From: Watersipora subatra
Taxonomy: Eukaryota; Bryozoa; Gymnolaemata; Cheilostomatida; Watersiporidae
Reading direction: 5' to 3'
Assembly: GCF_963576615.1 (NCBI RefSeq)
Contig: NC_088708.1
Span: 67,538,672-67,602,671, forward strand
DNA length: 64,000 bases
How positions within the stretch are numbered: position 1 is the stretch's first letter; each line of letters starts with the position of its first letter. A program made the position numbers and the translations under genes. Positions 6,227 to 64,000 of the stretch are shown here, piece after piece. The notes below the pieces were generated by a model that was given only the letters and a program-made list of their open reading frames with translations, searched no databases and was not told where the DNA came from.

Positions 6227-9200
6227 ATGACCAAAGCCTGGCAGCTCCTTATCTGCACTGCAGCCATTTTTATACCTGGATTTTGTAGAGATTGTCAAGA
6301 TCTGCGGCTGGGACAGTATCCTTAATGATGTCACTATAGTATTATTTTGTCATTTATATTAACTTACATTTTATTTATAAGGTCAAACCCCCATCTATAA
6401 ATACATCACCTCAACAAATCAGCAAATCCAATGCTGACGTAACGGAAGAGCGTAAGTAGTTAGCGAATACATGGCTAAGCGCTATTCCTTCACTAAATTT
6501 TATGACAGATACCGATGTGAAGATGAAAGAACTACTAACACTGTTGGAAATTTTGTAGAAAGTTGTGAGGTGCTGGATAAAAACCGACCAGAAGAGTATG
6601 CTTGGCGTATGTCTTATATTTCTATTCTTTTTTGCAATATGTTGCTTGGACAACTTTGATGAATAGCGCTAAAACAATATAAAAATAGTAATATTTCCGT
6701 ATGATAGGAGTGTGTTGAGCTGAAGTGAAATGCGAGTCTCTCATGGTAATTCAAGTAGTGGTCATGTAAGAATAATGCAAAACTGAATCTCTCCAACCTG
6801 ACATCTCTTTGTAGGTATTTTGTGTTACCCTGCTCCTGGCATAAGCTGCAATGATAAGGTATTTGATGGAGAGACAGTTGGTTTCAACTACACAGTTACT
6901 TGTAATAAAAAGTAAGTTCAGTGTTAGTGTAATGCTTCCACTTGTTAGAATCGTATCCTAGACTGAGATCCACTCGAGCTTCAATAGATTGCCTAAGGAT
7001 TTTGTTGGCTCTGTATGTCTGTTCATTAGTATGTATCTACAGGATATTTCATATGCATTGATGAAGAGAGATTGCTGCATCCAGTTCAGCTTCTTTAAAG
7101 GTTGGCTTGCAACAAAATTCACATTACAGTTATTTGATATCAAAAGATTCACCATGTCTTACTATGCTGTGTTGTAGGTGCAAAATATGTGGGATTGTGA
7201 TTACAAGCTCTTAAAGGCTCAAAAACAAACAGTTAATCGCAGCCATCACAAAACCGCCGTAGATTAGAATATTTTTTCTAAAACGGCTCAATTGGGATGT
7301 AGATGAATGAGATGGCTTCTGTTTACACTTTCATGCAACCTCATTCGTCGAAGAATTTTCACAAATATACTTCACGCATTCGATAAAACCATGTCTATTG
7401 TTCTTACGCGTCTGTTTTATCGTCATTGTAATGCTCTCACTTTTAGCAGTGATATCTTATAACTTACCGTAAGAATTCATTTAATTTTTTAACCTTACCT
7501 CGAAGGTGTACATACCATAGAGTAATCTCCCCCTAGAGTGATAACTGTGCATTCAACAACACGAGCGTTTCCGGTGCCAACAAGGAGCGTTTAGGCCACG
7601 CCCCTTTTTTGTGCTAGTCAATCGTAGTAATTGACAGAACGATAACATCAGCCATGAGAATGATCATGAATTTCCACAGTTAAGATAGTAATTATTGCTC
7701 ATATTAAAGAATTGATGATTATAGTTTATTACTCTAATATATGCTTATTATTTAAAGCAATTCAATACCTACATGCCTTGCAAAGGCACTGAATAGATAG
7801 TGTTAAGTGAGTTAATGCAATCAGTTACTCCAATGATATACAACCCCCACACATGGGGGGCTGTATATCATTGGTTACTCATAGATAGGATAGATAGTCA
7901 TACTGGGGTTGTATTACATTAGTGTGATGGGAAGCTAATCGACTGCCATCAACTATGATTCCAATCAGAGGTTAGCTTTCGAATGTTTAAAAGACATTTT
8001 GCTATGCTATTTTGAGTCATATTATTAATTAAGGAACTACACTTCATTGCTTTAAGATTTTCTAGTATGTATAAATACTTATAATACGGTAGTTATTAAT
8101 AATAATAGTTATTAATAATAATTATTATTAATAATTTAAATAGGAACTGTTGTCTCTATCACTTTTTGACGAGTATGATTGACTTTATTTTTCACAAAGA
8201 AGTGACATTTGTTTTTACTATGATTCTGCAAACAGAGAGAAACACCATATACATGTATATTCTTTATATAGAGTTTAGAGTAATAATAATTTTCTACTTT
8301 TCACTGATTTTTTAAGTTATCAAGAAGAAAATTTTTTGGACCTGTTTCATTGGTTAAAATTGTTAATAAGACTGTTCTTTTCATTATAATATAATTATAA
8401 TTACATTATAATTATAATTTAATTTCTACAGATCAACAATTTATGATAACTTTTCAATAAATTCTGCATATAGTTAGATATGGCAATAAAACAAATACGT
8501 TATATAAACCAAATGTAATAACTATATTCATGAAATCAATAAAAAGAAGATTCTATTGTTATTTTACTACAAGTGAGCAGAGGTGTAAGTGCGGTGAAGA
8601 AGGCGATGGGTGGTGCATCTTTAGAGGTGGTGAGAGAGATGTGTAATGGAACTCACTCTAAATAAAATAAGTGTATGTAGTGGAACTCACTCTAAATGAA
8701 ATAAATGTATGTAGTGGAACTCACTCTAAATGAAACAAGTATATGTAGTGGAACTCACTCTAAATGAAACAAGTATATGTAGTGAAACTCACTCTGAATG
8801 AAACAAGTATATGTGGTGGAACTCACTCTAAATGAAACAAGTATATGTAGTGGAACTCACTCTAAATGAAATAAATGTATGTAGTGGAACTCACTCTAAA
8901 TGAAACAAGTATATGTAGTAGAACTCACTCTAAATGAAACAAGTATATGTAGTGGAACTCACTCTAAATGAAATAAATGTATGTAGTGGAACTCACTCTA
9001 AATGAAACAAGTATATGTAGTAAAACTCACTCTAAATGAAACAAGTATATGTAGTGGAACTCACTCGAAATGAAACAAGTATATGTAGTGGAACTCACTC
9101 TAAATGAAACAAGTATATGTAGTGGAACTCACTCTAAATGAAACAAGTATATGTAGTGGAACTCACTCTAAATGAAATAGGTGTATGTAGTGGAACTCAC

Positions 9201-12200
9201 TCTAAATGAAACAAGTATATGTAGTGGAACTCACTCTAAATGAAATAAGTGTATGTAGTGGAACTCACTCTAAATGAAATAAGTATATGTAGTAAAACTC
9301 ACTCTAAATGAAACAAGTATATGTAGTGGAACTCACTCTAAATGAAACAAGTATATGTAGTAAAACTCACTCTAAATGAAACAAGTATATGTAGTGGAAC
9401 TCACTCTAAATGAAACAAGTATATGTAGTGGAACTCACTCTAAATGAAACAAGTATATGTAGTGGAACTCACTCTAAATGAAATAAATGTATGTAGTGGA
9501 ACTCACTCTAAATGAAACAAGTATATGTAGTGGAACTCACTCTAAATGAAACAAGCATATGTAGTGAAACTCACTCTGAATGAAACAAGTATATGTGGTG
9601 GAACTCACTCTAAATGAAATAAATGTATGTAGTGGAACTCACTCTAAATGAAACAAGTATATGTAGTAGAACTCACTCTAAATGAAACAAGTATATGTAG
9701 TGGAACTCACTCTAAATGAAATAAATGTATGTAGTGGAACTCACTCTAAATGAAACAAGTATATGTAGTGGAACTCACTCTAAATGAAACAAGCATATGT
9801 AGTGAAACTCACTCTGAATGAAACAAGTATATGTAGTGGAACTCACTCTAAATGAAATAAATGTATGTAGTGGAACTCACTCTAAATGAAACAAGTATAT
9901 GTAGTAGAACTCACTCTAAATGAAACAAGTATATGTAGTGGAACTCACTCTAAATAAAATAAATGTATGTAGTGGAACTCACTCTAAATGAAACAAGTAT
10001 ATGTAGTAAAACTCACTCTAAATGAAACAAGTATATGTAGTGGAACTCACTCTAAATGAAACAAGTATATGTAGTGGAACTCACTCTAAATGAAACAAGT
10101 ATATGTAGTGGAACTCACTCTAAATGAAACAAGTATATGTAGTGGAACTCACTCTAAATGAAATAGGTGTATGTAGTGGAACTCACTCTAAATGAAACAA
10201 GTATATGTAGTGAAACTCACTCTAAATGAAATAAGTGTATGTAGTGGAACTCACTCTAAATGAAATAAGTATAAGTAGAGGAACTCACTCTAAATGAAAT
10301 AAGTGTAAGTAGAGGAACTCACTCTAAATGAAATAAGTGTATGTAGTGGAACTCACTCTAAATGAAACAAGTATATGTAATGGAACTCACTCTAAATGAA
10401 ATAAGTGTATGTAATGGAACTCACTCTAAATGAAACAAGTATATGTAGTGGAACTCACTCTAAATGAAATAAGTGTATGTAGTGAAACTCACTCTAAATT
10501 ATACTAACTAAACTTTGAATAAATTCACGTAGCTTATCCATTTACTGTTAATTTTGTAATTTTTTTGTGTTCTTGTTTTAGCCTTGAGTCATCTCCTTCA
10601 ATTATAAATGAACGCTGCATTGAGAACTTTCGAACATCACCATAGGGTGTACAGTTGAATATTTGCTTGATTTTCACATCTCATGTCAGAACATTTGTGT
10701 GTTAAGAGGTAGAGGTTTGACTGTATTTAAAAAGTAAACGTGAAACATTGTGGTCCATAACAGTCCATAGCAGTGCTGGTCTTGCCTAGAGTAAATATAT
10801 AAGCATAAAAGCTATTAGTGAGTAGCCCACGGCATATATAACGTGCCCCACAACACATTAAGTCGCATAGCTTATCATGTCCTGGCTGGTTGTCAAGTTC
10901 ATTATTTAAGGTATGTTGTACGATATGATCATCAAAGAATGACTTTATTTATAATACATAAGTTACGCTTTGATTGTTGAGCTAAAATCATCAAGGATAA
11001 AAAATGTGATTAACACTGAAAAATGGCAAAAAAATATTAAATGGTATTTCGTGAGCCCGTGGTACATGTTGTTGTGGTCGAAGTAGGATTTTCATTCTGT
11101 GTTTGTTTTCTTCTGTAGGAGTGAGAAATCTTTAGAGACAGCTCTATTGTTGTCAATATTCCTCGGCATGTTTGGAGTGGATCGCTTTTACCTTGGCTAT
11201 CCTGCTATTGGTGAGATTTCTCTTTATATCAACTTTTCATGCTTCCTCTCCATATGACCCTATCAACATTGGTGGCTTTTCATGTTACCATAGAGACACA
11301 ATCAACAAGCCCTTTGGCTACTTCGACTCTTGCTATACAGAAATTTTAATTCACAATTAAAGAGAATAGCTAATAATAATCTTTACCTTAAAGACTGGTT
11401 CACGCTATATCGCCAAATGTTGGAGTTGTCCTTTTGACGTTCATCGTCGACTATCTGCCGTTACGTTGGGAAAGTTGCTGCTGTCAAACATTCCAGAGGT
11501 TTCGCCGAGCATCGACGACAGCCTGTACAGTGTGAACCATTTTGGTGATAGTAATTCGTGGTCGTGGATAGCATGACTTTTTTTGTCCGTTTTTGATAGT
11601 TGCTGTGGGACTATTGTTTGATTCAATCGTGCGAAAACAGAGATTTCTTTGAGAAAATTAAAAAAAAAATGAGAATACTACATCATGGAGTATTTGCTGA
11701 TGTAAACGCGGATGGGTTTGTGATTGTGTGAACATTGTTATCTTCGACAATCACCGAAGTATTGTGGCATCAACACCGAGATACGGTGTGATATAGTGTG
11801 AACCAGCCTTAATAAGACCTGGATCATACTGTTCGTCTGTCTGTTCATTTGTCTGTTTGTCCGTTCGTCTGGACAGGATTCAAACCTTTGGCATTCAGCA
11901 GGTGGACTGACACCCTAACACCTGCATCAATCAACCACCTTACTTTATTCTTTGTGTTTTATCAGCGCATCTGATGATCTCTCACAGCGCGCTAGACGCC
12001 AATTTACTAGTTATTACAATAACTTACAATGTTTTGCTCCTCAACTACCAATCAAGAATATGGAAGGGGGTATGTTATGAGAGCTGTAAAATAATATTTG
12101 TGAGTCTGAACTGAAACTAAATTTTGATTCGTTTCTATGTACTTACTGACGATTCCCTCAACGATGTATTCAAGAGATGCTGATCACACAATTTCAACGC

Positions 12201-18760: not shown

Positions 18761-21127
18761 TCACTTCATACAGCGAGGAAAGTATGTGCTGCCAACATAG
18801 CCTCCTCTCAGTGACTTGTGTACATTCTGAGCAAATACTTGTCTATTGGATGACAGGACTGACGCAGCCTCTTTGTTAAGAGGATCATCAGGGTTGGGTT
18901 CCTGCAGCAGCAGAATAGTTTTATGCGGCGTATGATCACTCAGCAACAGCGTTGACAGTAAATAGTTTAGTTATTCTCCTAAAAGTTAACCTTTGTCTCG
19001 AGAGATGAACGACAATAAATGGCATCCAAAATTAGTTCGCCCATAGAGCTTTTGGTTTGAGTCAATCTGCATCAACATATTCTATGTATTTCTTGGACTA
19101 TCTAAAAGCAATTGCTTATTTAAACTCTGTCAGTAACTAATACAGGCAATCGAACAGACAAACTATTGTGCATGATTCCCAGAAGCCTTAAAAACCTAAT
19201 TACAGCTATTCCAATACTGCAGCATGCGTGTTTATGTTAGCTTGATGCAAAACTTTTTAAACATGTATTTGAACTTAACAATGTAAAATTGGCAATTTTA
19301 GGTACACATGCAATAAGTGCGCGCAGCCAGGAAGCTGCTTAGAAAGCTGCTGTACGCTGATTTGATGAAAGTAAACAACACTTAGAATATAAATATTAGA
19401 AATCCAGTTAACATGACAAATAAATTCACAAAGTTATACCACAAAGGAAATACGTTTGTATCATTTTACACTGAACAATAAATAATAATGTGGTAAAATT
19501 GTATACAAAAGTTTTAATAATGACGAAAAAAACTACAATTATTGCACCCTTTACTGCAAGATTTCTGACTGGATGAGTTGACCAGTGCTAACCAAGCTGC
19601 ATACTTGACAGCAACAAGTAGGTATATCAACCAGTGCAAAGCAAGCTGCATACTTGACAGCAACAAGTATATCAACCAGTGCTAACCAAGCTGCATACTT
19701 GACAGCAACAAGTATATCAACCAGTGCTAACCAAGCTGCATACTTGACAGCAACAAGTATATCAACCAGTGCTAACCAAGCTGCATACTTGACAGCAACA
19801 AGTATATCAACCAGTGCTAACCAAGCTGCATACTTGACAGCAACAAGTATATCAACCAGTGCTAACCAAGCTGCATACTTGACAGCAACAAGTATATCAA
19901 CCAGTGCTAACCAAGCTGCATACTTGACAGCAACAAGTATATCAACCAGTGCTAACCAAGCTGCATACTTGACAGCAACAAGTATATCAACCAGTGCTAA
20001 CCAAGCTGCATACTTGACAGCAACAAGTATATCAACCAGTGCTAACCAAGCTGCATACTTGACAGCAACAAGTATATCAACCAGTGCTAACCAAGCTGCA
20101 TACTTGACAGCAACAAGTATATCAACCAGTGCTAACCAAGCTGCATACTTGACAGCAACAAGTATATCAACCAGTGCTAGTTGTAATGCTGACCAGTAAG
20201 TTATTAATATTAACATTAGACGAAGCAAAAGAAACCCATTGCTAGCATATACAATCTGATGTCATTATCAGTGTATTTTTGTGCAAACAAATTTAGTAAA
20301 ATAGTTGCTTTAGTTGATCGAGTATGACTAATCTCGCCAACTTTCACCAAACAATGAGTCACCAATAGAGCTATTGTAAGAATGGATAGAAAGGAAGATG
20401 TAATGAGCACCAACACTTACCAAGAAGAGATACTGTAGACCATATATTATAGAATTAATAGTGAGCACCGGCTTCCAATCCTCTCTATATAAACACAATT
20501 TAGACATGAATAAGATTTGCAGAGGAAACGAAACATCTAAACTAGTAGGTTGGACTAGAGCAAAGTTAAACAAGCACCGTGTGTTTGGTCATAATAAATA
20601 GAGACATCCGAGGTCAGAGCGGCAGCAGCATCTTGAGAGGTGCTATCCGCTGCCGAATAACTCCACACCACCTTCACCGCTGTGGTGACATCCTCAGACA
20701 GAAGCCAGCTATAGCTACATATCTAAAGATGACCAGCAGCCTGCAGCTGTACATTATCATTATCTCACATGTCTAGTAGATAATTACTAGCTATTGTGGT
20801 ATGTTACAAGCCTCATGACTTTGGCTTATCCTACACGCTTATCCCCGCTTAACACTATATGTACATCATCTTATCAGATATCTAAACAATGGGCAAATTC
20901 CTAGAATAAATGCGGGACAGAATACCACTAACAATCCAAACAGTGTATGACAATTCTGCACAACAGACAATGCTAGGGAACTCAGCACTGCCTTCAAATA
21001 TAAACTCTGCAACAAGATTTCACCAATAATATAAATATGTCTATATATATATGTCTATATATATATGTCTATATATATATATATATGTCTATATATATAT
21101 GTCTATATATATATGTCTATATATATA

Positions 21128-53022: not shown

Positions 53023-55200
53023 ATGAGTACGGATTCAGAGGTAGGTATGCAATTATTTCTCTGGTCACTTAGTGGCCGCTGGATTGGGAAAAGAGATTAT
53101 GAAAGCTGTTGCTGCTATATATTCACATAGCATTTCCTAATTTGTTATCGATTTCTAACGATCAAAATATCTAACGATTCCTAAATTCAGTTGCTTTGTA
53201 ATTGCTAGAATATGACAAATAGGAAAGTGTAGCTATAAATAGTAAACTCTTTCATGAATGTTGGCTGTTGCCAATGACCTACTGCTTTTATCTGTATCTT
53301 ATCTTTTATCTGCTTTTTATTTTTTATCTTGTCTAACATTAGAAATAAAAGCCATGTTTTGGATCTTGTGTAGTCAGTGCTGAGTCAGCTGAAGCGCGTG
53401 AGAGTTTCTTTGGAGAAAACTAAATCCATCCTCGATGCAACAACGGTAAGTGTTGTAATACAGCATGGTAACAGTAAACATAACTTCGATCATTGTGATA
53501 TGTCCGGGAGTGCCATACGTGTATAGTTTGAGCTAACCTGGATGACACCAATGTCTGGTCACACACTTGTTTTATTAGACTTCCTGTGATGAATGGAAGC
53601 TTGAAGAATGTGAAAAAATGTGATTTCCTGCATATGCGCGTGTAGATTTAATTTTGCTCTATAAATATATACCATAGAGTAACCACTTTTTGTGGAATTT
53701 TCCAATTAAGTGTTATGATTTTATTTTTGCAAAAAAACAGATAATCGAAGTTATTAAATTTTGCTTGTGAAATTGCAACATGTGAACAAAAGCTGTTGTC
53801 ATTCAGATACAATCAAGTGAGAATTCTAGGAAGCCATTTTACATTCGTGTTGAGAGTCGTCCTGTGAAAAAAGATCGACAAGCATATTTACTTGCACTAG
53901 AAAAGGAAAAGCAGCGGTTGCGAAAATTAAAAAAGCAAGTTAAGGTTACGAGTGAGCAGCAAGATGGCCAAACTGGATTCACTGGAGCTCCTTTCAGAGT
54001 TCAGTCAGAACGGTGAGGTAAACCTATAATATGCCCAGCATGTAAATACATCCTTACTGTTAGACTATCATAGAAAGGAATTTTAGTGACAACTACAGCT
54101 TTTGCTGCAAGCAGAAATTATTTCATACAAGCAACCAATTAAGTGACAGTGCTATGGCAAGATATAAATGGTACTACCTTGGTATAAAGCTAGTGTTATA
54201 AACAGTACTACCTTGGTATAAAGCTGGTGTTATAAACAGTACTACCTTGGTATAAAGCTGGTGATATAAACAGTACTACCTTGGTATAAAGCTAGTGTTA
54301 TAAACAGTACTACATTGGTATAAAGCTGGTGTTATAAACAGTACTACCTTGATATAAAGCTGGTGTTATAAACAGTAGTACCTTGGTATAAAGCTGATAA
54401 ACATCAAAGGTACATAATCAAAATGCCCAACGAATGCATCACAAATTTAGCGGTGGGAGGAAACACAAGATATCACGGCGAGTTGCACTACTTGCCTAAC
54501 TCAAAATTTTCAAGTCCCACAGGAAGTTGTTTGCAAGAAATTTCAAAAGCTTGCAGTTGTTCTGATTTTCGGTTATGAGCAAAATAGAATATTCATTCAA
54601 CGTTGCTATGATTAGGATTATCTAGCATCTTCGTCTTTGTCTAATCTCAGAGTTACATTTTTATAACAGCTCAGTAGAGTTTGTTATATCAAATGATTGG
54701 CTGTTAGCTACTAATATCATACGACTGATTAATTCTATGTAAAACACTGCTTAGTAAATAATTCACCGAGTATTATCTTTTAAAATCAAATGATTCTGTA
54801 AAAGATCAGTAAGTTATTATTCTTTTCCTTCTAAATGGTTTTTGAAAATGGCCTTCATACATGATCTCTCCTACTACTAGCTAGTGTATCACATTTAACT
54901 TAAAACAAAGGCTATCATCAAGTTCGAACTGTCAATGTGTGTTGGCATCAGCCTCATGCTACAAGTTAAAACACTTATTTCATTCGTCTCAGCCTTATTT
55001 AGCAGGATGTCAGAGACTGCATTTTATCTATATTGACAATGTTCAAGGATATTCGCCCAGCATCAGGTTTTTGTTAAACAAAATTATTCTTTAGTTTACA
55101 CCCAAAATGTTGTTGATGACTGTATTTTTTCTCTAGACTTGTTGTTGATAACAAGGATTATAAAATAGGCCAGCTTCCAGGATATGATGATCTGTCATGA
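53023..55200 (+). CDS. Unrecognised 119-aa coiled-coil protein gene
   Basis: Exons: 53023-53040, 53374-53445, 53807-54012, 55137-55200, with consensus sites (GTAGGT, GTAAGT, GTGAGG donors; GTGTAG, ATTCAG, CTCTAG acceptors) and consistent phase. The product begins MSTDSESVLSQLKRVRVSLE, continues with FYIRVESRPVKKDRQAYLLA and a basic coiled coil LEKEKQRLRKLKKQVK, and ends DYKIGQLPGYDDLS. Charge pattern and clean splicing argue it is real. I do not recognise the family. No poly(A) signal is seen before the next gene, which starts 50 bp on; because that neighbour is a sperm/cilium-type protein, a role in the same structure is possible but only inferred. Intron 3 contains a 34-bp minisatellite. 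Confidence 0.7.
54171..54393 (+). repeat. 34-bp minisatellite, about 6.5 copies
   Basis: Unit CCTTGGTATAAAGCTGGTGT followed by TATAAACAGTACTA. In intron 3 of the 119-aa gene. Unit length equals that of the array at 8641 but the sequences are unrelated. Confidence 0.93.
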
Positions 55201-55250
55201 CATACAAACCATGTTGAGGGATTTTACAATAGACTTGACTAGTGGTCACC

Positions 55251-58200
55251 ATGTTATTGTACGAGTGTGCTCAATGTTTAAGATTTGTTCCGACCGGACT
55301 ACATCCAAGATTAGCCCCACTTAAAGAAAAGACACCTCACAAGCAAAAATCAAAAGTATCTGCTTGTGAGGGCACTTGTCAAGCTAAACAGTGTCAGGCT
55401 GTCAGCCTCTGGAAGGTAGGCGTAACTACTGTATACCATGCGTATAACTGTGATGACTGTCTTACTTCTGTTGCTAAATATTAGATGTTTCACTGTTGCA
55501 TGACTGGCTAAGTGGTTTTTTGTAGCCCAAGGGCTACGTTAAAAATGCGGTATTGGGCAGTGATCAGATAAAGCTGAAACAAACCCAGCAAAAGATTGAT
55601 GATAATAGAGGTCCTGGCTATTATAATTTACCTGCCTTAACTGAACCCAAGTCATGTAAGTTACTTCTCTAAGATTAGTCATCTGCATAAAAACATTGAT
55701 AACAATATCGCATAAAGATATTAGTAGCAGATAAATCTAAATACTGCAGTGCTCAGTTAAAATGCATATAAACATAGAGAAAAATTTTATACAGTATGTA
55801 CTTGCTAGCGTGTTGTACTTGAATATACCTTGAATGACTTATTTACAAAAATGATATTAATGGTATCAATAAGAATAGCACATTAATAATATAGAAAATG
55901 ATACATTCTAATATTTAAATGTTTTGTGCATTTTGAGAAGAGATTCATTTTTAACTTTTAGTTACAATCATGACGAAAAAATCTAAATGTGTTCACTAGT
56001 TTTCTAGTTACAATAATAAAGAACAAACCTAAATACATCTACTAACCTGACAGTTACAATCATAAAGAACAACTCTAAACACATCTACTAACCTGATAGT
56101 TACAACCATAAAGAACAACTCTAAATACATCTACTAACCTGATAGTTACAATCATAAAGAACAACTCTAAATACATCTACTAACCTAATAGTTACAATCA
56201 TAACAAAAAAACCCTGTATGAGTCTACTAGGACTTCACCAGAGCTAACTACAGCTATTTGCAACTGCGAATGGAAGCCTCTGAAATCGTTCACTGCTATA
56301 TTTTAACTTAGCTGCTACAAAACCTACATCAAAAGGTGAAGTAATACGAGGCCATTTACACAGAAGTCTGGTGAAGAGAGTAGTTGTGACCCCAGGTCCG
56401 GGCACTTACCAACCAGAAATGCAGCTTTGTCAGCCACGAGATGGTCCGCCAATATTTGAAAGCTGTAAGTGTAGCACTTGAATATGTGTAGCACTTGAAG
56501 CTGAGTTTATCAAAAGAGTATAAAACTAACTACAGTTAGAGTTTACTGAATATAGTAACGAGTTAAAACAGAGGTCAAAGGTCATATTTTGTTTAGCTCA
56601 TTGAGCACTTTCTCTTCCACAGCAAATGGCAACTTTACTAAGCTTATCTTATAGTCACTTGCTAGGAAATAAGGTATAAAAGTGATTTACTATGGTTTCA
56701 GACTTTCAAACGGAATTTTTTAAATTGTTAATGAATCTTTTAAAACGGCATCTTTGAATTGATACCGTTCACAATTTTAAATGAATTTGTACAACAACCA
56801 CTTTAAAATAAAACTGTTATTAATTATAGCTTTAGGACATCAACAGAAGTACACAACTCTAGGAAGTGGTTTGCCACCTGGACTTCATAACACTGAGCAA
56901 GGAACAATAGGAGACCTGGTGCAAAAGCAGGTCGGAACAAAAGGACCATTTTATACCTGTTCTGAAAGTAGATTTTCTAACACCTGCAACAAAGGATGCA
57001 TGGAAAATACCAAAACTCCACATCTTGGACCTGGTAGGTTAATTTTTGCAATGACTCTCAACTATCGGGTATGCCCACCCAATTTCATCACCAGGCCAAC
57101 CACATCTTCTTTAGAGTTTTAGAGCAGTGCAAGAGAAATAAAATTTACTGGCTATCCCCCTGGGCAAATGCTTTTGTGTACAAGTGTAGGATATTAGCAA
57201 GTTTACGAGCTCCAAACTGCTCAAACTGGATCAGTTTACTGCTAAAATAAAAGTTTTAAATGCAGAGTTATCAGCCCCTAGAGTTATCAGCCCCTAACAC
57301 TGGAGTACGTGTATTAATAATGCTGTATTTGGATGTGCTATGGCAGCGATCAGACAGTTTGCATATTTTGTAATATAGGCACTTACGATCCAAAGCATCA
57401 CTATAAAGAAGAAAGGGAGGATTTTCGAAGAAGAGACAGAGAAAATGGCATCATGATAAGAAACTGGGGATTTGCACGTCAGTCGACATCCTTGAACCTA
57501 GCCAAAAGTAAGTGGGCAATTAAGAGAATTAATAAAAGGCCTTAACCTTCTGCTGGATTGTTTATAAATTGCATCACAAGGAAAATATGTTACATATTAT
57601 GTTTTTGAGATAAATAAAGTCGGGCGTTTGCAGCACAGAATTTATGTTTTTTGCCACACCAACTACAGAATGATGTGATTATATTGCAGATTCTAAATCA
57701 AATTATGATCAAACTACTCAACAACAAAATCAGAAGGGTCCTTTCACAGCAAGTGTCAAGCAAAGCGGACTAACACAAAAGGTCGGTTTATATTGGCTTA
57801 TAAATGCCAAGTTAGTACAACTAGCACTAAATGTTACACAGACATCATTGCTTCACTAATAGCATATTGTTTCAGTTAAATACTAAAATATAAACACATA
57901 ATATAAAACTGTGTACTGTATCATCTTACATGAGTACCATACATTCTGGTGTAGATTTGCTGGGCAAGTACACGACGCTAAATCAGCAGACAATTGATCA
58001 CAGTATGTCAGTCAATAGGTTCGTAGCGCGTGTGTTATGAGTGTGTGGAGCTCATGCTTGTAAAACACGTCCATAACATGTGTCTAGAGCAAATGTCTAT
58101 AGCATATTCCTGTAACGGATGACTTTGGTCCATGTCTGCAGCATATGGTCACATCTCAATTATAATACATGCTTTTGGAAAACCTGCAACACACTCTTAA

Positions 58201-60336
58201 GGTCTGGCCACATGTAACGAATTATTCGTTCAATCTGACCAAATTAACGAATTTCACAGAATTCACAGATTTATTCAGCCGAATATCACAGAATCGTCTG
58301 AGCTGTGCATGCACACCGAATTCGTCAACGAAACGCTTTTAATTGGCTTACCAATTTTTTAGCGAGCACGATTCTAGTAGCGTTGACAAGTGGTATAGTC
58401 CAAGACAAGTACGACGACACACAATAAAAGTATCACCGCGATATGACTTGATACATACAATGCAACTGCCTATATGCGCTAGAGATAGCGACTGTTTTTG
58501 CGACGGAGCTTTTGCTGCATAAAAGAAAATTACTATTATTTAAAAAGAAACAATTTATAGCTTCTAAAACATCTAAAAGAAAATACTGGATTCACGATGA
58601 GAAGTTCCTGTCATGGTGAACCAACGAGAGAACAAACAATAGCGCATATAGGCAGTTGCATCGTATGTATCAAGTCATATCGCGGCGATACTTTTATTGT
58701 GTGTCGTCGTACGTCTTGGAATATACCACTTATCAAAGCTACTATAATCGTGCTCGCTAAAAAAATTGGTAAGCCAATTAAAAACGTTTCGTTGACGAAT
58801 TCGGTGTGCATGCAGGGCTCAGACGATTCTGTGATATTCGGCCGAATAAATATGTGAACTCTGTGAAATTCGTTAATTCGGTCAGATTGAACGAATAATT
58901 CGTTACGTGTGGCCGGACCTTTATAGCATATATGAAACCATTAATCATGCTTGCAGCAAACTAAACAAGTGTGTGTGTATGTATAAGCTATGAGTATTTC
59001 TGATATCACATTTTAACCAAGGATATGAATCTAAGCGGTATATGAATAGCTTATGCTTTTATTTTATTTTAAGCAGTATATGAATAGCTTATGCTTTTAT
59101 TTTATTTAATTTTAAGCGGTATATGAATAGCTTATGCTTTTATTTTATTTAATTTTAAGCGGTATATGAATAGCTTATGCTTTTATTTTATTTAATTTTA
59201 AGCGGTATATGAATAGCTTATGCTTTTATTTTATTTTAAGCGGTATATGAATAGCTTATGCTTTTGAAAAAGATAAAATTAGAAGCGAAGGCACATTGTA
59301 GTTGGCCCAGAGCCCAAACTAACACAAAGTTAAAAAAATGTGAAAGGATTCGAGGGCAAAATGATCAAAGCCACTTAATGTGCAATCTTGACTCATGTAA
59401 TGGTTAGCTTTTATAATCATGCACGCTCACAGATGCTATGAGAGTGTGTTGCAGGTGTTCTAACAGCATGTATTATAGACGGGATATGAGCATATCCTAC
59501 AGACATGGGCCAAAATCATTCATTAAAGGAACAATATTTAACAGCATGGGCTACATACACTCATAACACAAGTGCTACAACATTTTGGCAGACATGCTAC
59601 AACACATACTCTGATGAATTGTCTTCTAACTGAGTGGCATGTACTACCTAATGAATATATTGCAGTCAATGGCACTTGGAGTGAAATGGACTGACAAACT
59701 CGGATTTCTAAGCAGCAGCAAATTAAGAGACAAAATAATAGCAGAAACTTGGCCAATGAACAACTACATGACAGGACCTGGAAGGTATGTATCTCTATAC
59801 ATGACAGGACCTGGAAGGGATGTATTTCTATTCATGACAGGACCTGGAAGGTATGTGTCTCTATACATGACAAGATTTGGAAAGTATGTATCTCTATACA
59901 CGACCTAGAAGGTATGTATCTCTATACATGACAGGACCTGAAATGTATGTATCTCTATATGAGACAGGACCTGGAAGGTATGTATTTCTATTCATGACAG
60001 GACCATGAAAGTTCAAATTGCAGTACAAACCAAGATGATCATGCATGGCTTTCTTGTAGGTATTTCACAGACCGCTATGATCGTTTTATGAAGAATGAAG
60101 TGGGACATAAAGCAGTGTTCAAATCTAAAAACCCTCAACGAATGGAGTTTGGTAACAAAAACACTTTACAATTGGCACAAGAACGGAACAAAGCTAACTT
60201 CAAAAGAAGGAAGGCGAGGTTAGATAAAGCGATAGCAGCTGAAATAACATCCCATAAAAGGCGAAGAATGGCAACCATAGAAACCGATTCAACCTTTTCT
60301 TTTTTCAGCGAACGACAAAAGATAGGATCATTGTAG
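55251..60336 (+). CDS. Sperm-tail PG-rich (SHIPPO) repeat protein
   Basis: Family members associate with microtubules of sperm flagella and cilia. Exons: 55251-55415, 55526-55655, 56312-56464, 56830-57033, 57379-57507, 57690-57781, 59666-59784, 60060-60336; every phase agrees, about 422 aa. PG repeats: RGPGYYNLP, TPGPGTYQPEM, HLGPGTYDPKHH (across an exon junction) and MTGPGRYFTDRYD (also across a junction). The N-terminus has CxxC pairs (YECAQCLRF); the C-terminus is strongly basic (NFKRRKARLDK, SHKRRRM). Several repeats are split by introns in the same place, GP-G|xY, suggesting growth by exon duplication. The ATG at 55251 is the first in frame; an upstream GTG at 55242 is not used. AATAAA lies at 60412. 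It resembles STPG/LEXM-type proteins, but I cannot name the orthologue. Confidence 0.85.
55960..56215 (+). repeat. 46-bp minisatellite, about 5 copies
   Basis: Unit GTTACAATCATAAAGAACAA then CTCTAAATACATCTACTAACCTGATA. In the second intron of the SHIPPO gene; the first copy is the most diverged. Confidence 0.93.
58200..58920. mobile_element. PIF/Harbinger-derived foldback element
   Basis: 721 bp flanked by TTA on both sides (58197-58199, 58921-58923). The ends read AGGTCTGGCCACATGTAACG and (other end) AGGTCCGGCCACACGTAACG, and the arms stay complementary for about 290 bp. The central 150 bp, on the plus strand, encode ATVFATELLLHKRKLLLF... then TSKRKYWIHDEKFLSW and a stop, which resembles the RRxxWVHP step at the N-terminus of Harbinger transposases. 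So it is a deletion product whose second arm runs over captured sequence. It lies in the intron before exon 7 of the SHIPPO gene. The open frames at 58597-58857 (+) and 58611-58811 (-) lie largely in the right arm. Confidence 0.85.
59033..59265 (+). repeat. 38/43-bp minisatellite, 6 copies
   Basis: Unit AAGCGGTATATGAATAGCTT then ATGCTTTTATTTTATT, with or without an extra TTAAT. In the same intron as the Harbinger element. Confidence 0.93.
59766..60007 (+). repeat. 33-bp minisatellite spanning an exon's 3' end and donor site
   Basis: Unit ATGACAGGACCTGGAAG|GTATGTATCTCTATAC (bar marks the splice site of the first copy), about 7 diverged copies. The first half of copy 1 is the end of SHIPPO exon 7. 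As 33 is a multiple of 3 the frame stays open through four units (MTGPGRYVSLY repeated) to a stop at 59906-59908. Donor-like GTATGT occurs in frame at 59785, 59851 and 59884; copy 2 has lost it (GGATGT). Confidence 0.93.
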
Positions 60337-63073: not shown

Positions 63074-64000
63074 TTAAAAGTTGACTTGCAACAAAATTCA
63101 CATTACAGTTATTTGGTATGAAAAGATTCCCGATGTCTTACTCTGCTGTGTTGTAGGTGCAAAATATTTGGAAATGTGATTATAAGCTCTTAAAAGCTCA
63201 GAAGCGAACAGTTTATCGCCCCATCACCAAACTGTTGTAGATTAGAATCTTGTTCCAAACCGGCTCAAATGGGACGTAGATGAACGAGATGGCTACATGA
63301 TGTTTACACATTCATACAACCTCATTCGTCGAAATATTTTCACAAATATACTTCATGCATTCAATAAAACCATGTCTATTGTCCTTGAGGCTTATGCGTC
63401 TATTTCCTCATCATTGTAATGCTGTCACTTTCAGCACTGATATCTTATAACCTACCGTGAAAATTCGTTTAATTTTTTAATCTTAGCTCGAAGGAGTACA
63501 TATCATTCTCTGATAAACATGACGAACCTGTTGGTCACATGTGATAATCGAAAAATGCTGCAGAAATTCTTTGCGCTGTTTGGCAGGAAGTATGGGTCAC
63601 ATGATCAGATTACGACTAGACGATGAGACCAAGCCGAAACAAAACTGTAAATGAGACAGCATCTATAATTGATATGGGCTCTTCGGTAAAACCCGAAGTG
63701 TTTGTCATAAACTAGTGCTATGAGAAGTTTTATATTGAGCCTTTTATTGGCCTTTCCATTTACATGAGAACATCACGTGTCAAAACAATAACCAAATGGA
63801 TTGACTACGTCAGAGAAATAAACTGATTCCAATCTACGGCGGTTTCGTGATGGCGGCGATTAACTGTTCGTTTTGATCTTTTAAGAGCTTGTAATCACAT
63901 TTCCACATATTTTGCACCTACAACACAGCAGAATAAGACATTCTGAATCTTTTGATACTAAATAACTGTAATGTGAATTTTGTTGCATGTCAACTTTCAA
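63074..64000. mobile_element. Long inverted-repeat element, copy 2 (cut by window edge)
   Basis: The left end TTAAAAGTTGACTTGCAACA and the right end, read from the other strand, TTGAAAGTTGACATGCAACA begin arms that stay complementary for about 190 bp (to near 63260 and 63810). The left arm continues to match 7087-7530 to about 63500. The interior includes CACGTG-type words and no coding signal. The right terminus reaches the last bases of the window, so target duplications cannot be read. It abuts the piggyBac remnant, sharing the TTAA. Confidence 0.75.

Follow-up and report, generated by a model that had tools for sequence, protein, structure and literature searches.

A 33-bp minisatellite across an exon-intron junction lays out a ladder of candidate splice donors in a SHIPPO-repeat gene

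The window, a 64,000-nt stretch of Watersipora subatra DNA, carries a SHIPPO (sperm-tail PG-rich) repeat gene that we modeled by hand as eight exons, with one frame open across all seven junctions and GT/AG at each of them (Table 1). The 422-aa model matches the SHIPPO-rpt family (PF07004) at 27.9 bits and E 4.5e-06, above the curated cut-off of 20, and contains four spaced GPGxY motifs, at residues 84, 127, 216, and 328 (spacings of 43, 89, and 112). A search for a solved relative returned none up to E 1. Intron 7 interrupts the GPG motif at residue 328 (AG|G in GPGRYF), and the junction 59784|60060 proposed in the first-pass annotation restores GPGRYF and keeps the frame open in the eight-exon model. 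Further upstream on the + strand, at 53807-55201, lie what appear by eye to be exons of another gene, ending ~50 bases short of the SHIPPO gene's start codon; these exons and the SHIPPO gene may belong to one transcription unit.

Table 1 Features of the SHIPPO-repeat gene and of the minisatellite at its exon 7-intron 7 junction, in window coordinates.
Feature	Position	Strand	Basis or remark
Eight-exon SHIPPO (sperm-tail PG-rich) repeat gene, predicted 422 aa	55251-60336	+	hand-made model, including the start codon
Exons 1-4 of the gene model	55251-55415, 55526-55655, 56312-56464, 56830-57033	+	hand-made
Exons 5-8 of the gene model	57379-57507, 57690-57781, 59666-59784, 60060-60336	+	hand-made
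Exon 7, ending in MTGPGR with a phase-2 donor	59666-59784	+	gene model
Exon 8, beginning with the remainder of GPGRYF and bearing the C-terminal tail	60060-60336	+	gene model
33-bp minisatellite of seven units, each with a donor position, plus part of an eighth	59765-60012	+	TRF, pattern searches, shuffles
First donor AAG|GTATGT, presumed canonical	59785-59790	+	U1 duplex -8.8 kcal/mol
Unit 2 donor position, GT lost (GGATGT)	59818-59823	+	sequence
Unit 3 donor, same 9-mer as the first; would add 22 aa in frame	59851-59856	+	
Unit 4 donor AAA|GTATGT, weak; its use would insert 33 aa in frame	59884-59889	+	
In-frame stop closing the readable part of the array	59906-59908	+	
Unit 5 donor, identical 9-mer, out of frame, past the stop	59912-59917	+	28-nt spacing
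Unit 6 donor AAT|GTATGT, weak, past the stop	59945-59950	+	
Unit 7 donor, identical 9-mer, past the stop	59978-59983	+	

The junction between exon 7 and intron 7 is crossed by a 33-bp minisatellite at about 59765-60012 on the + strand, with 7.4 copies of the 33-base period, 81% matches, and a Tandem Repeats Finder (TRF) score of 333, compared with a top score of at most 60 for periods of at least 15 when the window was dinucleotide-shuffled 20 times. Only the final 20 nt of exon 7 (59666-59784) lie within the array; the remainder is in intron 7, where it takes up 228 of the 275 bases. The units repeat the end of exon 7 (…MTGPGR), the splice donor, and the first bases of the intron. TRF and pattern searches confirm the first-pass annotation in placing the start of the array inside exon 7 and in reading its units as copies of the exon end and donor; the 16 intron bases that it assigned to each unit are correct if the unit is begun at MTGPGR, but become 13 if it is begun at 59765, where the similarity starts. 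Unit 1 straddles the junction and is identical to unit 2 over the exon-like 20 nt (20/20). Searching the whole 64,000-nt window with 19-base pieces of the unit, with up to three mismatches allowed, gave six matches for the exon-like piece and seven for the donor-spanning piece, all within the array (shuffle means 0.02 and 0.01, respectively). Unit 5 lacks 5 nt, which breaks the frame. Self-identity of the array is 0.653 at an offset of 33 bases, 0.649 at 127, and 0.640 at 160; that the two longer offsets score as high as the 33-base one suggests additional duplication of multi-unit blocks.

Sequence on either side of the array is no more similar to the unit than shuffled sequence is. Among 1000 mononucleotide shuffles in each case, 963 were as unit-like as exon 7 upstream of the array, 970 as the start of exon 8, and 867 as the 47 nt that close the intron; the array is therefore confined to the exon boundary and the 5′ part of intron 7. 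Such dissimilar flanks are in keeping with growth of the array in place at the exon 7 boundary and speak against birth of the intron by tandem duplication. Elsewhere in the gene, the end of exon 4 has GGACCTGGNAGGT in common with the array unit, with equally good matches in 4 of 1000 shuffles; both sites encode a GPG motif beside a donor, and the likeness may mean nothing more.

Tandem arrays are plentiful in this DNA. With a period of at least 15 and a score of at least 75, the window contains 20 merged arrays that cover 5339 bases (8.3%), and introns 2, 6, and 7 of the SHIPPO gene have one array each. Given this richness in the window and in the gene's own introns, an array that crosses a junction is not very surprising. 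The dominant period is divisible by three in six of the 20 arrays, or in seven if the array at exon 7 is counted by its 33-base period instead of its best-scoring row, 127. The longest TRF array in the window, at 8642-10499, has a 34-bp period, 54.6 copies, and 92% matches, and a 45-bp array at 19581-20179 (13.2 copies, 98% matches) is open on both strands, for 196 aa on the + strand and 236 aa on the - strand. Intron 2 of the SHIPPO gene contains a 46-bp array at 56005-56203 in which TACTAACCTGATAG, a branch-point-like motif followed by AG, occurs four times within one mismatch; this array is possibly an acceptor-side mirror of the donor copies in intron 7. Inverted repeats are also present. 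In intron 6, nested inverted repeats at 58194-58926 have arms of 167, 52, and 73 nt that are 92-97% complementary, giving a foldback or MITE-like appearance, and another inverted repeat, whose 130-nt arms are 91% complementary, extends from 63074 to the end of the window at 64000.

The array presents seven donor positions, at 59785, 59818, 59851, 59884, 59912, 59945, and 59978, spaced by 33, 33, 33, 28, 33, and 33 nt. Four of them (59785, 59851, 59912, and 59978) have the identical sequence AAG|GTATGT and equal U1 duplex energies. Donor strength was calculated as a plain duplex with the 5′ end of U1 and provides a rough ranking rather than the output of a splice predictor. By this measure AAG|GTATGT forms a duplex of -8.8 kcal/mol, which is equaled or exceeded by 0.64% of the window's 3723 + strand GT sites (those of the array included), and the gene's six other donors range from -5.6 to -9.2 kcal/mol. 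The donor of unit 4, at 59884, is weaker than each of these six, at -4.2 kcal/mol, with 21% of GT sites in the window equal or stronger, and the donor of unit 6, at 59945, reaches -3.6 kcal/mol (31% equal or stronger). The donors at 59912 and 59978 match the first in strength, but sit past the stop at 59906-59908.

Joining each donor to exon 8 in the gene model gives the predicted product. Donor 59851 would add 22 residues in frame, with two more GPGR sequences, one followed by D and the other by Y, and donor 59884 would add 33 residues in frame, with the last unit reading RFGK (RFGKY). From 59912, 59945, or 59978 the frame meets the stop at 59906-59908 and the product would end early. Among the three downstream donors that equal the first in strength, then, one keeps the frame and two lose it. 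These joins reproduce the in-frame additions of 22 and 33 residues in the first-pass annotation, which also had the stop in the right place and noted that a 33-nt unit, as a multiple of three, keeps the frame over the early units, as seen in the 33-nt spacing of the first four donor positions. Its choice of 59851 and 59884 as the usable donors holds for frame but not for strength, 59884 being a weak site, and the extra GPGRY motifs that it foresaw come down to one of two, with the other reading GPGRD and unit 4 reading RFGKY.

We consider the best explanation of the locus to be neutral slippage across the exon 7-intron 7 junction that left a series of donors in competition, some of which may see leaky use, and assign this reading a probability of about 0.7. 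In this process, slippage or unequal exchange would have extended the minisatellite from the boundary of exon 7 and intron 7, a direction of growth that we infer from a single sequence. With a donor region carried in every unit, intron 7 would come to open with a ladder of rival 5′ splice sites that includes four identical ones. Most transcripts are probably spliced from a single donor, for which the first is the simplest candidate. Occasional use of 59851, possibly in particular tissues, would place a 22-residue insert in frame, and use of 59912, 59945, or 59978 would yield transcripts with early stops, of the kind that nonsense-mediated decay probably clears. For the array itself, neutrality or a slight cost is most likely.

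The first-pass annotation saw here a protein repeat being born, with the array adding copies of the family's own repeat. For the array to be an emerging protein repeat, 59851 (and 59884) would have to be regularly used to supply two extra GPGR sequences, with copy number varying between individuals. Several features are in keeping with this idea: the 9-mer at 59851 is identical to that of the first donor, the 22-aa insert is in frame with two more GPGR and 33 is divisible by three, GPGR and the frame are retained in the first three units, and the read-through of intron 7, at 121 nt, is the longest among the gene's seven introns (the others being 14, 14, 35, 66, 75, and 86 nt). Against it, unit 2 has lost its donor, unit 4 has a weak donor and no longer encodes GPG, and two downstream donors as strong as 59851 lead to stops. 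The chance of an open in-frame unit is also ~1/5, from ~1/3 for the period and 0.61 for a stop-free unit. An open frame was rejected as a sign of coding, as a second forward frame over the array has no stop between 59695 and 59931 and extends further than the coding one, and reverse frames over the array are long too.

Units 2-4 differ from unit 1 at seven codons, six of which change the residue, compared with ~67% for random single changes, although seven differences give little power. Mean identity among units 1-4 is similar for the exon-like (0.875) and intron-like (0.885) parts, and over all seven units the exon-like part is the more varied, with a mean identity of 0.774 versus 0.919; when unit 5 is omitted, 9 of 20 exon-like columns vary versus 3 of 13 intron-like columns. 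This comparison of the two parts favors neither reading. The 11-residue period of the array is unlike the motif spacing of 43-112 residues elsewhere in the gene, and differs from the repeat spacing of SHIPPO1, for which the excerpted source gives six PGP repeats within 254 aa (PMC3454368). The isoform with the 22-residue insert scores 24.1 bits against PF07004 versus 27.9 bits without it, both above the cut-off of 20 and both with two matching stretches; the units are not recognized as further SHIPPO repeats by this score, although a length effect may account for part of the decrease and a 33-position profile could miss a short repeat. Searched by itself, the read-through frame of exon 7 had no Pfam match up to E 10. 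We regard an emerging protein repeat as unlikely. Overall, the sequence favors neutral slippage over a selected protein repeat, with low-level use of downstream donors possible.

A related proposal is that the array works as a length switch, in which alleles with additional units, combined with leaky donors, would give a range of ciliary proteins that carry two or three further units of 11 residues, or none. We consider this quite unlikely; if it were true, intron slippage would pass new repeats straight into coding sequence. The donor ladder could instead act as a regulator, with 59912 and 59978 diverting transcripts to stop forms and array length tuning the amount of protein. That two of the four identical donors lead to early stops would suit such a role, but the sequence gives no sign that the balance among donors matters, making this proposal decidedly improbable. 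It is more doubtful still that intron 7 owes its origin to an exonic AGGT segment duplicated in tandem, with the array as what remains of that event. AG|GT at the donor, GT at the opening of exon 8, and the 228 of 275 intron bases filled by the array would agree with such an origin, but the acceptor sits within 47 nt that do not resemble the unit, and exon 8 does not begin with a recognizable copy of it. Birth of the intron from the array was set aside, as neither the start of exon 8 nor the end of the intron resembles the unit better than shuffles do. Finally, it is very improbable that the gene model is off, either because exon 7 ends at another unit or because an acceptor at 60023|60024 adds 12 residues, as the TTGCAG at 60018-60023, directly after the array, gives an open in-frame join but has by eye a poorer pyrimidine tract and would break the GPGRY motif that the acceptor at 60060 restores.

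If the downstream donors are used, the locus would offer a clear view of an intronic minisatellite entering a protein, and array length could be tied to isoform length within one species. If they are unused, it would provide a natural test of how a choice is made among four identical donors within 200 bases.

Several known systems resemble the array in part. Prawn Rlec lectins have coding tandem repeats of 33/30 bp in the second exon, in 1 to 9 copies, the number of which is thought to shift through slip mispairing according to the excerpted source (PMC7536079). They share 33-bp units in an invertebrate gene with the array described here, but their repeats are exonic, whereas the SHIPPO-gene array is mostly intronic. 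Intron gain by tandem genomic duplication, as excerpted (PMC4974935), similarly links tandem duplication to a splice junction. It differs in that neither the acceptor nor exon 8 of the SHIPPO gene holds unit copies; were they derived from the duplicated unit they should resemble it, but the start of exon 8 and the end of the intron matched it no better than shuffles did. The MSY2 minisatellite upstream of human DDX3Y lies, like the SHIPPO-gene array, inside a transcribed, alternatively spliced region and contains a transcription start, but in the portion of the source consulted its splice donors are downstream, outside the units (PMC3039753), whereas those of the SHIPPO-gene array are inside the units.

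The SHIPPO-gene array resembles a kind of donor-supplying minisatellite already known from human IFI6 (6-16, G1P3). Turri, Cuin and Porter in 1995 (Nucleic Acids Res. 23:1854) reportedly described the IFI6 (6-16) minisatellite as having multiple splice donor sites, and it is said to have a 12 bp unit and to be placed at an exon end. In the SHIPPO gene a donor-bearing array likewise lies across an exon end, as placed by the hand-made model, and more than one unit has a good donor sequence (AAG|GTATGT in four of seven). Among the matches listed from the open-licence literature, as excerpted, no comparable donor-copying array beyond IFI6 was found. In IFI6, two downstream minisatellite units act as donors and three mRNA species result, according to the excerpted account (PMC4526556), and the IFI6 minisatellite is cited, in another source seen in excerpt, as a case of minisatellites interfering with splicing (PMC3618361). 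In both genes, minisatellite units supply splice donor sequences. The two differ in that donor use is reported from transcripts in the excerpted IFI6 work and predicted from sequence for the SHIPPO gene, and in that they belong to different gene families, with the frame break in unit 5 belonging to the SHIPPO array.
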